Part shown: one piece after another, positions 44,244 through 50,568 of the stretch
How positions within the stretch are numbered: position 1 is the stretch's first letter
How the letters are laid out: the number at the start of each line of letters is the position of its first letter
Source of the DNA: Halothiobacillaceae bacterium
Lineage (GTDB): Bacteria; Pseudomonadota; Gammaproteobacteria; Halothiobacillales; Halothiobacillaceae
Reading direction: 5' to 3'
Assembly: GCA_028696185.1 (NCBI GenBank)
Contig: JAQVHL010000003.1
Coordinates: 1-64,000 of the forward strand
DNA: 64,000 nucleotides
Position numbers and translations under genes: made by a program
Notes under the pieces: generated by a model
Databases searched by the model: none
Told to the model about the DNA's origin: nothing
Seen by the model: the letters and a program-made list of their open reading frames with translations, nothing else

Positions 44244-45599
44244 ATGTCTGAAACGATGATCAAAGAGCAGTCACCCGCTGTGGCTGTCGGAAGCGAAGGC
44301 GTGGCCTCCGAAGGGCGCCGCAAGTTCCTTCGCAAGAGCATGGCCGTTGCCGGTGGTGCTGCCCTGGCCGCTGGCGCCGGTGCGGGCGCAGCCGTCGCCG
44401 CGCCTCTGGCCATCCCCCCGACCAACAAGGTTCTGGGGCGTGGCGTGGTCAGTGTACCGTACGGTATGCCGTCCAAGTTTGAAGCCCACGTGGTGCGCCG
44501 TAACGTCGAGTGGTTGACCGCCGACACCATCGCCTCCATCAGCTTTACCCCGCTGCAGGATCTGAACGGCATCATTACCCCGAACGGCCTGCACTTCGAG
44601 CGTTACCACAGCGGGGCCGTCGACATTGATCCGGCCACCCATCGCCTGGTCATCCATGGCATGGTATCCAAGCCGATGATCTTCACCGTTGAAGATCTCA
44701 AGCGCTTCCCGTCCCACACCGGTATCTGGTTCCTGGAGTGCCCGGCAAACGGCGCGATGGAATGGCGTGGCGTGCAGATGAACTCCCTGCAGTTCACCCA
44801 TGGCATGATCAGCTGCGCCGAATGGACCGGTGTCAAGCTGACCGACCTGATGGAATACTGCGGTGTTTCCAAGGACGCGACCTGGCTGTACGGCGAAGGC
44901 GCCGACGGTTCCGCCCTGCAGCGCTCCATTCCGCTGCCCGGCGCCAAGGACCAGTTCGGCAAGCCCATCCCCGATGCCGACAGCATCTACAAGGACATCA
45001 TCATCGCTTACGCCCAGAACGGCGAAGCGCTGCGTCCTGAGCAGGGCTACCCGATCCGTATCATCGTTCCGGGTTGCGAAGCCAACGTTTCCGTCAAGTA
45101 CCTGCGTCGCATCAAGTTCACCAACAAGCCCTTGGTGACCTACCAGGAAACTCGTCACTACACCGACGTACTGCCGGACGGCAAGGCACGCCAGTTCAGT
45201 CTCATCAACGAGACCAACTCCGTCATCACCACCCCCTGCCCGGATTACAAGCTGAACGGCAAGGGCTTCCACGAGATCCGTGGTCTGGCCTGGTCCGGCC
45301 GTGGCAAGATCAAAGGCGTGGACATCTCCGTTGACGGCGGCAAGAACTGGGCGCCGGCCAAGCTGGTCGAGCCTGTGATGAGCAAGTGCATGACGCGCTT
45401 TACCTTCCCTTGGGACTGGAACGGTCAGGAAGCCCTGATCATGAGCCGTGCGACCGACGAAACCGGTTTCGTACAGCCCACGCTGGCCCAGCTCAGGAAA
45501 GTGCGTGGCACGGAGAGCATCTATCACAAGAACTCCATCCAGGTGTGGAAAGTCGAAGCGAACGGTGAGGTGAAGAATGTCCAGATCGAAAATGTTTAA
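44244..45599 (+). CDS. soxC: SoxC, molybdenum subunit of sulfane/sulfite dehydrogenase
   Basis: A 451-residue sulfite-oxidase-fold protein with a twin-arginine signal (Arg25-Arg26 in RRKFLRKSM, then an Ala/Gly-rich segment). The Moco-binding cysteine is Cys166 in FLECPANGAMEWRG. LNGIITPNGLHFERYHSG and the C-terminal dimerisation domain agree with SoxC. With SoxD it oxidises the sulfane sulfur bound to SoxYZ in the periplasm. The Moco biosynthesis genes lie divergently just upstream. AGGAG precedes the ATG. Confidence 0.95.
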   Translation: MSETMIKEQSPAVAVGSEGVASEGRRKFLRKSMAVAGGAALAAGAGAGAAVAAPLAIPPTNKVLGRGVVSVPYGMPSKFEAHVVRRNVEWLTADTIASISFTPLQDLNGIITPNGLHFERYHSGAVDIDPATHRLVIHGMVSKPMIFTVEDLKRFPSHTGIWFLECPANGAMEWRGVQMNSLQFTHGMISCAEWTGVKLTDLMEYCGVSKDATWLYGEGADGSALQRSIPLPGAKDQFGKPIPDADSIYKDIIIAYAQNGEALRPEQGYPIRIIVPGCEANVSVKYLRRIKFTNKPLVTYQETRHYTDVLPDGKARQFSLINETNSVITTPCPDYKLNGKGFHEIRGLAWSGRGKIKGVDISVDGGKNWAPAKLVEPVMSKCMTRFTFPWDWNGQEALIMSRATDETGFVQPTLAQLRKVRGTESIYHKNSIQVWKVEANGEVKNVQIENV

Positions 45600-46281
45600 G
45601 CTGAGCGCGGTTGCCGGCACCCTGCTGCTGGCAGGCACCGCTGCTGTTGCAGCCCCGAAGGTCCAGGGCATCGGCAACGCCATCTCCGACGCCGACATCA
45701 AGCCCTGGGACATCAGTGTGTTCTTCGATGGCGAGAATCTGCCGGCCGGTCAGGGTTCCGTGAAGGAAGGCGAGCCGATCTATCAGGCCAAGTGCGCCAT
45801 GTGTCACGGCGAGTTTGGTGAAGGCGCTCGCGGTTATCCGAAGATGCTGGGCGGCACGATGGAAGAGTTCCATCACGCGGCTCAGCACGGCGAGGACAAC
45901 GTAGGCATCCGTGGTGTCAACAACATGTGGGGCCACGCGCCGACACTGTATGATTACATCCGTCGCGCCATGCCGTTCTTCGCGCCGCAATCGCTGAACG
46001 ACAACGAGTCCTACGCCACCACCTGCTACGTGCTGTATCTTGCCGAGGTCATTGACGACGAGAAGACCGTGTGCAACGCGGATGTCTTGAAGAAAATCAA
46101 GATGCCGGCACAGGACAACTACGTCACTGACAACCGTCCAGATACCAACAGCAAGCGCTGCATGAAGGACTGCTACCAGGGCGAGCCGGTCGTCAAGGGC
46201 ATGGCCGTTATCGGTGACGTTGCCGTAGGCGCGGTCAAGAAGCGTAACGAAGCCGAAGAAGGCAAGCCGGCAGGTCACTGA
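45577..46281 (+). CDS. soxD: SoxD, c-type cytochrome subunit (single heme)
   Basis: A 234-residue periplasmic cytochrome: signal peptide (about 1-25, ending AVAA), one heme site Cys73-Ala-Met-Cys76-His77, and an axial Met in KIKMPAQDNYV. The DNRPD segment matches SoxD. Only one CxxCH is present, whereas Paracoccus SoxD has two; an additional CMKDC near residue 190 lacks the His and is probably a disulfide. ATG 45577 has GAGG 6 nt upstream and overlaps soxC by 23 bp, so the pair is coupled. Confidence 0.92.
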   Translation: MSRSKMFKLSAVAGTLLLAGTAAVAAPKVQGIGNAISDADIKPWDISVFFDGENLPAGQGSVKEGEPIYQAKCAMCHGEFGEGARGYPKMLGGTMEEFHHAAQHGEDNVGIRGVNNMWGHAPTLYDYIRRAMPFFAPQSLNDNESYATTCYVLYLAEVIDDEKTVCNADVLKKIKMPAQDNYVTDNRPDTNSKRCMKDCYQGEPVVKGMAVIGDVAVGAVKKRNEAEEGKPAGH

Positions 46282-46848: not shown

Positions 46849-47709
46849 TCAAGCCTCAATGGCGCTGCGCAGCTTGCGCAGCGCGTTCTGCTCGATCTGG
46901 CGGATGCGTTCGGCAGAGACGCTGTAGGTTGCGGCCAGCTCGTGTAGAGTGGCTTTTTCGCCGTCCTGCAACCAGCGTTGCTGGAGGATGTCCCGGCTGC
47001 GTGCGTCGAGCTTTTCCAGGGCCTGCTGCATGCGTTCGACGCGCTGGTGATGGGCGTCGCCTTCTTCGAGGCGCAAGGCCGGGTCCGCATCCGGGGCGGC
47101 GAGATAGGCGATGGGGCCCGGTGCGGCGTCCTCATCTTCTGTGTTCAGCGGGTCGAGCGCGAGATCCTGCCCATAAAGGCGGGACTCCATCTCAACCACG
47201 TCGCGGGCGGGTACACCCAGCTCTTCAGCGATGCGCTCTGCCTCGTCCTGGCTCATCCAGCCCAGCTGCTCGCGTGCACCGCGCAGACGGAAGAACAGCT
47301 TGCGCTGGGATTTGGTGGTGGCCACACGCACGATGCGCCAGTTGCGCAGGATGAATTCGTGGATTTCGGCGCGTATCCAGTGCACGGCGAAGGAAACCAG
47401 ACGCACCTTGTGATCCGGCTCGAAGCGCTTGACCGCCTTCATCAGGCCGATGTTGCCTTCCTGAATGAGGTCGGGCAAGGGCAGGCCGTAGCCACGGTAA
47501 CTGCGTGCGATATGCACGACGAAGCGCAGATGTGACAGCACGAGGGTGCGCGCGGCTTCGAGGTCCTGCTCATCGCGCAGCCGGCGAGCGAGACGGTATT
47601 CTTCGTCGGCGTCGAGCAGTGGGAGGCGACGAAGCTCGTCAAGATAGGCTTGCAGCGTATCGCCCGTCGGGGCGGGCAGGGTCTGTGACTTGAGCATCAG
47701 GGATGTCAT
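46849..47709 (-). CDS. rpoH: heat-shock sigma factor RpoH (sigma-32)
   Basis: A 286-residue sigma factor with regions 2 and 4. The RpoH box appears as QRKLFFRLR, and DLIQEGNIGLMKAVKRFEP is region 2.2. It directs transcription of chaperone and protease genes. It lies after ftsYEX in the conserved order. A perfect CIRCE operator sits 21 nt before the ATG, so transcription is probably also under HrcA control. Confidence 0.96.
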   Translation of the reverse strand: MTSLMLKSQTLPAPTGDTLQAYLDELRRLPLLDADEEYRLARRLRDEQDLEAARTLVLSHLRFVVHIARSYRGYGLPLPDLIQEGNIGLMKAVKRFEPDHKVRLVSFAVHWIRAEIHEFILRNWRIVRVATTKSQRKLFFRLRGAREQLGWMSQDEAERIAEELGVPARDVVEMESRLYGQDLALDPLNTEDEDAAPGPIAYLAAPDADPALRLEEGDAHHQRVERMQQALEKLDARSRDILQQRWLQDGEKATLHELAATYSVSAERIRQIEQNALRKLRSAIEA

Positions 47710-47730
47710 CGCGGTGGAACTCGCCTCATG

Positions 47731-47757
47731 TTAGCACTCTTGATATTGGAGTGCTAA
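47731..47757 (-). promoter_or_regulatory. CIRCE operator (HrcA site) upstream of rpoH
   Basis: TTAGCACTC (47731-47739), nine bases, GAGTGCTAA (47749-47757): identical to the CIRCE consensus in both arms and in spacing. It lies between ftsX and the rpoH start. Confidence 0.9.
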
Positions 47758-47780
47758 AGCGCGGGGCGGTTCCCCGGAAT

Positions 47781-48722
47781 TCATTCCGTACTCAGGCGGC
47801 GCAGGAAAAAAGTGGCGGTAATCCAGGCGCCCAGCCAGCCGAGCAGGCCCCCTCCGGCGATCAGCGAGGCGAGTACGATCACGGGCAGGCCGTCGGTGGG
47901 CAGCACCAGGCCGTAGCCCTGGGTGAGTGCAACGAGTGGTGCATTGAGCAGGGCCAGCATCAGGCTGACGATCAATCCGGCGGCGAGTCCGCCCAAGGCG
48001 CCCTGAATCAGACCGACATAGAGCAGCGGACGGCGTATGAAGCGGCGTGTGCCACCGATCAGCTGCACGAGCCGCACTTCGGCGATGCGATCCTGGAGCT
48101 CAAGGCGTACGGTGTTGCCGATGACGAAGGCGACGGAGGCGCCAAGCAGCCAGGAAATCAGCAAGGCGGCTTCGCGCGCGCCGGCCAGTATGGTTTCCAG
48201 ACGGTCCAGCCAGTCAGCATCACGGCTGACGCGGGCCACGCCAGAGAGCGTGCCGGCGCGTTCGCGAAGGGAATCGACATGCTGGCTGTCGCTGTAGGCC
48301 GGGGAGGGGTGCAGGATCAGCACGGTCGGCAAGGGGTTGTGCCCCAGGCTGGCGGCGGTCCCCTGGATGCCGAGGCGCTCTTCCAGCTCGCGTAGGCCCT
48401 GTTCGGGGGTGATCAGGCGCGCTTCGCTGATTTCCGGCCAGCCGCGCACCTGCGAGAGCAGGGCGTTGGCGTTTTCCGCACGGATGTTCTCGTCAAGATA
48501 GAGGCTCAGGTGGCTGGCGCGCTCGCGCCAGGTGGCACTCATCTGTTCAAGATTGACGAGTACGGCGTAGAGCACGCCGGGCAGGGCCAGTGCCACACCG
48601 ATCACCAGGACGGTGAGCAGGGCGCCGACGGGACCATGGCGGAAGCGGCCCAGGGCGTCGAGCAGGCTCTGTCGGTGATGATGGCGCCAGGAGTCCAGGC
48701 GGCGGGCGAGATCCTGCTTCAT
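47781..48722 (-). CDS. ftsX: cell division protein FtsX
   Basis: A 313-residue permease-like protein with four membrane helices (about 33-55, 180-200, 235-260 and 280-305) and a periplasmic loop between the first two. With FtsE it regulates peptidoglycan hydrolysis at the septum. It overlaps ftsE by 4 bp. Confidence 0.95.
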   Translation of the reverse strand: MKQDLARRLDSWRHHHRQSLLDALGRFRHGPVGALLTVLVIGVALALPGVLYAVLVNLEQMSATWRERASHLSLYLDENIRAENANALLSQVRGWPEISEARLITPEQGLRELEERLGIQGTAASLGHNPLPTVLILHPSPAYSDSQHVDSLRERAGTLSGVARVSRDADWLDRLETILAGAREAALLISWLLGASVAFVIGNTVRLELQDRIAEVRLVQLIGGTRRFIRRPLLYVGLIQGALGGLAAGLIVSLMLALLNAPLVALTQGYGLVLPTDGLPVIVLASLIAGGGLLGWLGAWITATFFLRRLSTE

Positions 48723-49387
48723 GGCTGGGCCTCGTCGCTGGCGAGCTGCCCGTTCTCAAGTATCAGACGCGGCGTGTCAAAGCGTTCGATCAGGTCGTGA
48801 TCGTGACTGGCGACCAGGACGGTGACCCCCACTTCATTGAACTTGCAGAATTCGTTCATGATTTCCAGCGACAGATCGGGGTCGAGATTGCCGGTGGGTT
48901 CGTCGGCGAGAATGATGGCCGGTCGATTGACCAGGGCGCGGGCGATATTCACACGCTGCTGCTCGCCCCCGGAAAGCTCAAGCGGGTAGGCACGCTCGCG
49001 ATCGAGCAGACCCACTTTGTCCAGCGCGGCACGCACGCGGCGCGCGATTTCCGCCGGGCGGTAGCCGCTGACGACCAGTGGCAGGGCGACGTTATCGTAG
49101 AGGGTGCGGTCTTCGAGCAGGTGATGGTCCTGGAAGATCAGGCCGATACGGCGCCTCAGGTAGGGAATGCGGTAGTCCGGAAGGCGGGCGATGTCCACGC
49201 CATCCACCAGCACGCGTCCGGCGGTGGGGCGCAGCAGGGCGGGAATGAGTTTGAGCAGCGTGCTCTTGCCGGCGCCGGAGTGGCCGGTAAGAAAGGCCAT
49301 GCGCCCACGCTCCAGCGAGAAATTCACATTGAGCAGCGCTTGCTGACCTGTCGTGAAACGCTTGCTGACATTCTCGAAGCGGATCAT
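48719..49387 (-). CDS. ftsE: cell division ATP-binding protein FtsE
   Basis: A 222-residue ABC ATPase with Walker [10 protein letters not shown], signature [14 protein letters not shown] and Walker [12 protein letters not shown]. It is the partner of FtsX and overlaps both ftsY and ftsX by 4 bp. Confidence 0.96.
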
Positions 49388-50568
49388 GGGCGTTCGTCGT
49401 CCGGCACGACATCGAGCATGGCATCGACGAAGTCGCGGGCGCCGAAGGGACGCAGATCGGCCATGCTTTCACCGACGCCGAGAAAACGTATGGGCAGCCC
49501 CAGCGCGTGGGTGATGGCGAACACGATGCCGCCCTTGGCGGTACCGTCGAGTTTGGTAAGGATCAGGCCGGTGACACCCAGCGCCTCGTTGAACTGCCGT
49601 GCCTGGTTGAGGGCGTTCTGGCCGATGCTGGCATCGAGCACCAGCAACACTTCCTGCGGAGCGTCGGGGTCGAGTTTGCTCATCACGCGCTTGACCTTGC
49701 GCAGCTCGTCCATCAGGCCGGACTGGGTGTGCAGGCGGCCAGCCGTGTCGGCGATGAGAATGTCAATGCCGCGCGAGCGCGCGGCCTGCAGGGCGTCGAA
49801 AATCACCGCACTGGAGTCCGCACCGCTATCCTGCGCCACCACGGTGACGCCGTTGCGTTCACCCCAGGTCTGGAGCTGCTCTACGGCGGCGGCACGGAAG
49901 GTATCACCCGCAGCCAGCATGACGGAGCGGCCTTCGCGCCCGAAATGGTGCGCCAGCTTGCCAATGGAGGTGGTCTTGCCCGCACCGTTCACACCGGCGA
50001 CCAGAATGACGAAGGTGCCCTGTCCCCGCGGTGGCGTGAGCGGTACTTCGGCTTTTTCCAGGCGGGCGGTCATGTCCTCGCGCAGGGCACTGAACAGGGC
50101 GTCGGCGTCGGCCAGTTCCTTGCGCGAAACCTTGCGGGTAAGGTTCGCGATCAGTTCCTGGGTGGTTTCAACCCCCACATCGGCCAGCAGCAGGCGGGTT
50201 TCCAGCTCTTCGAGCAGATCATCGTCGATCTGCTTGCGGCCGAGGAAAAGCTCGGACAAACCTTCGGTGAAGCTGCGCCGGGTTTTGGCCAGGCTCTGGC
50301 GCAGGGAGGCAAACAAGCCGGCGCGCGGCTTTTCGGCTTCGACAAGGGCGGGGAGGGGAGCGGCCGTCTCCTGTCGGAGAGGCGCACCTGGGCCTGTGTC
50401 CGGGCCTGTATCCGGCGAGGATGGGGTCGTGGGCGCCTCGACGCGTTCAGGTTCACCGGAGGGGGCTGCTGGAGGCGCGGTGGGAGCCTCTTCAGGCGGG
50501 GTGATCCGGGGCTCCGGGGCGGGAGCGGGCGGGGTCTCGGTCTTTTTTCGCCGAAGGAAACCAAACAT
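49384..50568 (-). CDS. ftsY: signal recognition particle receptor FtsY
   Basis: A 394-residue SRP GTPase. The N-terminal ~90 residues form a Pro/Glu-rich acidic A domain; the NG domain carries GVNGAGKTTSIGKLA (G1), DTAGRLHTQ (G3) and TKLDGTAKGG (G4). It targets membrane proteins to the translocon. It heads the ftsYEX-rpoH cluster. Confidence 0.96.
   Translation of the reverse strand: MFGFLRRKKTETPPAPAPEPRITPPEEAPTAPPAAPSGEPERVEAPTTPSSPDTGPDTGPGAPLRQETAAPLPALVEAEKPRAGLFASLRQSLAKTRRSFTEGLSELFLGRKQIDDDLLEELETRLLLADVGVETTQELIANLTRKVSRKELADADALFSALREDMTARLEKAEVPLTPPRGQGTFVILVAGVNGAGKTTSIGKLAHHFGREGRSVMLAAGDTFRAAAVEQLQTWGERNGVTVVAQDSGADSSAVIFDALQAARSRGIDILIADTAGRLHTQSGLMDELRKVKRVMSKLDPDAPQEVLLVLDASIGQNALNQARQFNEALGVTGLILTKLDGTAKGGIVFAITHALGLPIRFLGVGESMADLRPFGARDFVDAMLDVVPDDERP

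Follow-up and report, generated by a model that had tools for sequence, protein, structure and literature searches.

A predicted HrcA operator overlapping a putative σE promoter upstream of rpoH in gammaproteobacteria

CIRCE is the operator bound by the repressor HrcA, usually at groE and dnaK, and HrcA is kept active by GroEL. The heat-shock sigma factor σ32 is encoded by rpoH, whose transcription is classically driven by σE; an anti-sigma factor holds σE until envelope stress. To our knowledge, Escherichia coli has no HrcA, so textbook accounts of σ32 control leave this repressor out. What, then, does an HrcA operator do at rpoH? The question is raised by a 64,000-nucleotide stretch of DNA from a Halothiobacillaceae bacterium (contig JAQVHL010000003.1; hereafter the window), in which a CIRCE element precedes this gene. 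A first-pass annotation of the site had proposed that HrcA represses σ32 here, placing the two heat-shock circuits in series rather than in parallel.

The rpoH operator and the predicted HrcA regulon

We searched for CIRCE as the inverted repeat TTAGCACTC-N9-GAGTGCTAA, tolerating up to three mismatches. The sole match in the window lies at 47,731–47,757 (− strand; as a palindrome it reads the same on both strands) and is perfect, with exact 9-nt arms, exact 9-nt spacing and no mismatches. It is TTAGCACTC-TTGATATTG-GAGTGCTAA as the window reads and TTAGCACTC-CAATATCAA-GAGTGCTAA on the gene strand. None of 100 dinucleotide shuffles of the window contained a match at this tolerance, the expected number being 0.

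The adjoining gene (46,849–47,709, − strand) encodes a 286-residue σ32 recognized by two curated models (TIGR02392, 393.9 bits against a cut-off of 323.1; NF005143, 409.3 bits). Its ATG is at 47,709, leaving a gap of 21 nt (47,710–47,730) between operator and start codon, just as the first-pass annotation had stated. A Shine–Dalgarno-like GAGG can be read at 47,724–47,727 (− strand), 14 nt 5′ of the ATG, a longer distance than usual. Upstream on the same strand are ftsX (47,781–48,722), ftsE (48,719–49,387; TIGR02673, 280.7 bits) and ftsY (49,384–50,568; TIGR00064, 351.6 bits), giving the order ftsY–ftsE–ftsX–rpoH. The nearest named RpoH comes from a Halothiobacillus metagenome-assembled genome (MAG). 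Elsewhere in the window (44,244–46,281), a sulfur-oxidizer gene pair encodes a soxC-type sulfite dehydrogenase (TIGR04555, 600 bits) and, after it, a protein resembling c-type cytochromes.

The genome encodes HrcA (TIGR00331, 303.6 bits against a cut-off of 197.2; PF01628, E = 9.9 × 10−60) in an hrcA–grpE–dnaK cluster; the gene whose absence the first-pass annotation had named as grounds for discarding its reading is thus present. At the same tolerance of three mismatches, a whole-genome search returned four palindromes, of which the rpoH site is the best and the only perfect one, and a reversed control pattern returned none. Two of the others are the further CIRCE sites that the earlier reading had suggested looking for, before groES (C90:35116, one mismatch) and before hrcA–grpE–dnaK (C90:9743, two mismatches). 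The fourth (C43:36855, three mismatches) falls within a type IV pilin-like open reading frame, and we take it to be most likely a chance match.

Given hrcA and two further CIRCE sites in the genome, HrcA most likely represses rpoH. It would also repress groESL and hrcA–grpE–dnaK directly, and the groES promoter region carries a σ32-like pair, CTTGACG-N13-CCCTATT, directly 5′ of its CIRCE; σ32-like boxes (CTTGA(A)..CCCTAT-type) also lie 5′ of the groES CIRCEs in most of the relatives displayed. For these reasons the predicted wiring is a feed-forward loop rather than a pure series, in which HrcA reaches the chaperones by two ways, directly and through σ32. The repression half of the first-pass proposal is therefore strengthened, both by the presence of hrcA and by the way in which CIRCE at rpoH tracks hrcA over 108 testable loci (below), whereas its series wiring gives way, because groES and hrcA–grpE–dnaK carry CIRCE themselves and groES has a σ32-like promoter.

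A predicted σE-type promoter beneath the operator

The operator lies over a match to a σE promoter, defined here by a GGAACTT-like −35 box, a spacing of 15–17 nt and a TCnnA −10 element. The −35 box, GGAACCG (47,767–47,773, − strand), starts 16 nt 5′ of CIRCE, immediately past the ftsX stop codon, at an offset conserved in relatives; it is two positions off the consensus GGAACTT and keeps the GGAAC core. Sixteen nucleotides after this 7-nt box, the −10 element TCCAA (47,746–47,750, − strand), with TC..A intact, occupies CIRCE positions 8–12, that is, the final two bases of the left arm and three bases of the spacer. The composite, GGAACCG-N16-TCCAA (GGAAC-N18-TCCAA), is placed 64 nt 5′ of the ATG. 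From the usual −10 to +1 spacing, transcription is predicted to start at 47,738–47,742 (− strand), in the right part of CIRCE, and the operator overlaps this predicted σE start site. The first-pass annotation had missed both the overlap and the class-wide commonness of CIRCE at rpoH. The genome encodes rpoE (TIGR02939, 284.9 bits against a cut-off of 236.15). Two contigs (C54:11500–15500 and C72:11400–15400) carry the rpoE region as identical copies (100% over 4,000 bases), probably an assembly duplicate.

When 61 rpoH leaders were aligned on CIRCE, the flanks proved near random, except that GGAACTT stands out strongly some 16 nt before the operator, where it corresponds to the σE −35 box. GGAAC occurs 43 times within 120 nt in these leaders, 36 times at −16 (28) or −17 (8), so that the motif sits at the fixed offset in 36 of the 61. 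A 16-nt spacer from the −35 box lands on CIRCE positions 8–12 (TCTCA, TCTAA, TCTTA, TCCAA and so on), which read as a σE −10 element. The CIRCE consensus does not include the spacer, yet where the −35 box stands at the fixed offset, 94% of leaders have A as the third spacer base. Spacers and flanks of the relatives have otherwise diverged freely and the CIRCE arms have not.

We also scanned 370 genomes of the class, a few of which overlap with the set of relatives, for GGAAC-N11/12-CIRCE. The composite is present in 94 genomes, exactly once in each, the window's copy (47,731–47,773, − strand) among them, and a reversed-control pattern had no match in the same 370. All 30 composites that were inspected lie directly 5′ of an RpoH gene. 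hrcA is found in all 94 composite genomes, against 277 of the 370 overall (Fisher P = 1 × 10−14, which, like the other P value given here, overstates the evidence because relatives are not independent). Of 91 distinct spacers, 85 have A as their third base (the A of TCnnA), and the fifth −10 position is A in 88 of the 94 composites. Since the mirror base across the palindrome is unbiased, we attribute this preference to the promoter, not the operator. At the matching offset, GGAAC was found at none of 19 groES CIRCEs and none of 13 hrcA CIRCEs. The strict composite is absent from 183 of the 277 hrcA-bearing genomes, a figure that pools other −35 variants, shifted sites and rpoH genes without CIRCE. 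A broader statement, that every rpoH CIRCE overlies a σE box, was rejected; some Burkholderiales have CIRCE without a box at this offset. The −35/−10 match and its conservation, like the operator, hrcA, rpoE and the other CIRCE sites, are seen directly in the sequence.

The same arrangement of GGAACTT, about 16 nt and TCnnA before rpoH is shared with the σE-dependent rpoH promoter of E. coli (P3) and its relatives (PMC3490749, PMC4890791). In Vibrio, GGAACTT and TCAAA are common to RpoE promoters, and rpoH is activated by RpoE (PMC4890791); in Bordetella, the RpoE-like SigE transcribes the rpoH promoter region in vitro (PMC3490749). The difference lies in the repressor: the enterics, vibrios and pseudomonads that we sampled have neither hrcA nor CIRCE at rpoH, and σE acts without HrcA in them.

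Co-occurrence with hrcA, rival readings and the predicted circuit

Among 30 genomes (the bacterium's own and 29 relatives), CIRCE precedes rpoH in all 17 that have hrcA. We added 80 named rpoH loci from a public collection, giving 108 testable loci in all, and allowed up to three mismatches. CIRCE then lies 5′ of rpoH at 56 of 62 testable loci with hrcA compared with 5 of 46 without it (Fisher P = 4 × 10−17, with one locus that has no upstream sequence, L059, scored negative and relatedness ignored). The five hrcA-less loci with CIRCE come from four draft MAGs (L008 and L036 are apparently one contig), and because these are draft genomes, hrcA may have been missed in them. Several genomes with hrcA, two Chromatiaceae among them, lack the operator before rpoH. 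CIRCE at rpoH is common in the class and not special to this genome. The σE-like rpoH promoter is kept in 27 of 41 hrcA-less genomes, where 0.5 would be expected.

All seven genomes of genus g3, in the same family, are without hrcA and without any CIRCE, which makes the genus a natural case of loss of this circuit.

These observations bear on how the site works. HrcA on a leader operator could act as a roadblock 3′ of an ordinary promoter, be it σ70-type or read-through, with GGAAC irrelevant, which is the wiring of the first-pass annotation. Some genomes do have an rpoH CIRCE without a σE box at the fixed offset, and read-through from ftsYEX is possible, as a consensus scan found no terminator between ftsX and rpoH. 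That GGAAC stands at one exact offset in so many leaders (36/61) and genomes (94/370) is hard to square with an irrelevant motif, as is the matching spacer A, a bias found neither at the mirror position nor at groES or hrcA CIRCEs. A consensus scan of 47,600–48,100, spanning the interval between ftsX and rpoH, also yielded no σ70-type promoter, and we regard the roadblock as improbable.

Less probable still is a role in the rpoH transcript, where the palindrome would fold into a leader hairpin governing mRNA stability or sensing temperature and would not be a DNA operator. Its position in leaders and its capacity to pair as a stem fit this, as does the translational regulation of σ32 in E. coli. 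Against this, its occurrence follows the hrcA gene, and a transcript begun at the predicted start, inside CIRCE, would be missing the left arm, a point against the hairpin role. The leader palindrome matched no Rfam family at E values up to 1. We give slightly less credence again to the view that the operator is an inherited relic, no longer used here: it is the only perfect CIRCE in a genome whose groES and hrcA sites have one or two mismatches, its arms have been kept while the spacers and flanks of relatives diverged freely, and the hrcA-less genus of the same family has retained no CIRCE at all.

We therefore favour, with good though not full confidence, a reading in which HrcA uses this CIRCE as a functional operator, covering the −10 element and the start region of a σE-dependent rpoH promoter, inside a feed-forward loop. 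We infer HrcA binding, competition between HrcA and σE–polymerase, and the direction of the temperature response from the layout of the sites. In unstressed cells, HrcA, active through free GroEL, would occupy the rpoH site and block σE–RNA polymerase, so that transcription of rpoH would need both free σE and the departure of HrcA. Heat or misfolding would titrate GroEL, and HrcA would leave the operator; envelope damage would free σE from its anti-sigma factor, and rpoH would be transcribed once HrcA is off. HrcA would thus repress or tune rpoH and repress the chaperones, which σ32 would activate. We give even odds to a wider proposal, that gammaproteobacteria with hrcA have at rpoH a fused σE promoter and HrcA operator with AND-NOT logic (σ32 only if σE is free and HrcA is off). 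Such a circuit would be old and widely conserved, and the heat-shock system of E. coli, perhaps a simplified descendant, would be a form of it that has lost the HrcA arm.

Operator sequence and spacing, an HrcA-family repressor, and CIRCE at groES and hrcA–grpE–dnaK are all shared with the class I HrcA/CIRCE regulon of the Bacillus groE/dnaK type; here, by contrast, the activator gene rpoH is also a target, and the underlying promoter reads as σE and not housekeeping. Permina and Gelfand probably noticed CIRCE at rpoH in gamma- and betaproteobacteria in 2003. The literature that we searched, outside which that work fell, held no description of HrcA at a σE-driven rpoH promoter. CIRCE at rpoH had already been predicted and σE control of rpoH is long established; what we did not find in the literature searched is the overlap of CIRCE with the σE promoter, its fixed geometry and its spread. 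In Geobacter sulfurreducens, a deltaproteobacterium, a perfect CIRCE was predicted upstream of rpoH at position −51 (Rodionov 2004, PMC545781 Table 8), beside sites at hrcA–dnaK and groESL as here; the parts of that study available to us do not mention overlap with a σE promoter, and co-occurrence with hrcA in gammaproteobacteria lies outside their scope (PMC545781). With an HrcA site overlapping a predicted σE start at the σ32 gene, three stress sensors appear to meet: in about a quarter of the sampled gammaproteobacterial genomes, one promoter would join the heat-shock sigma factor to a chaperonin sensor in the cytoplasm (HrcA) and to a sensor of envelope stress (σE). The resulting wiring diagram is directly testable.

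Variant sites in rpoH leaders

Four loci, from Xanthomonas, Luteimonas, Lysobacteraceae and a proteobacterium (L040, L050, L062 and L070), have a variant of CIRCE with GCAGTC/GACTGC arms in the rpoH leader, for example TTAGCAGTC-N9-GACTGCTAA. With up to two mismatches allowed, no canonical GCACTC palindrome was found in these four genomes except for a hybrid site in Xanthomonas. The variant possibly reflects a shift of HrcA specificity.

Rhabdochromatium and Thiohalocapsa (L063 and L087) retain hrcA and CIRCEs elsewhere, and their rpoH has no CIRCE. In Pseudoalteromonas luteoviolacea, a perfect CIRCE before rpoH is the only site found in the genome, and HrcA is represented by only a divergent match (46.6 bits, E = 1.2 × 10−11). 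One further leader (L028, 2,380–2,438) carries a tandem pair of CIRCEs 5 nt apart before rpoH, the second of which has one altered arm.
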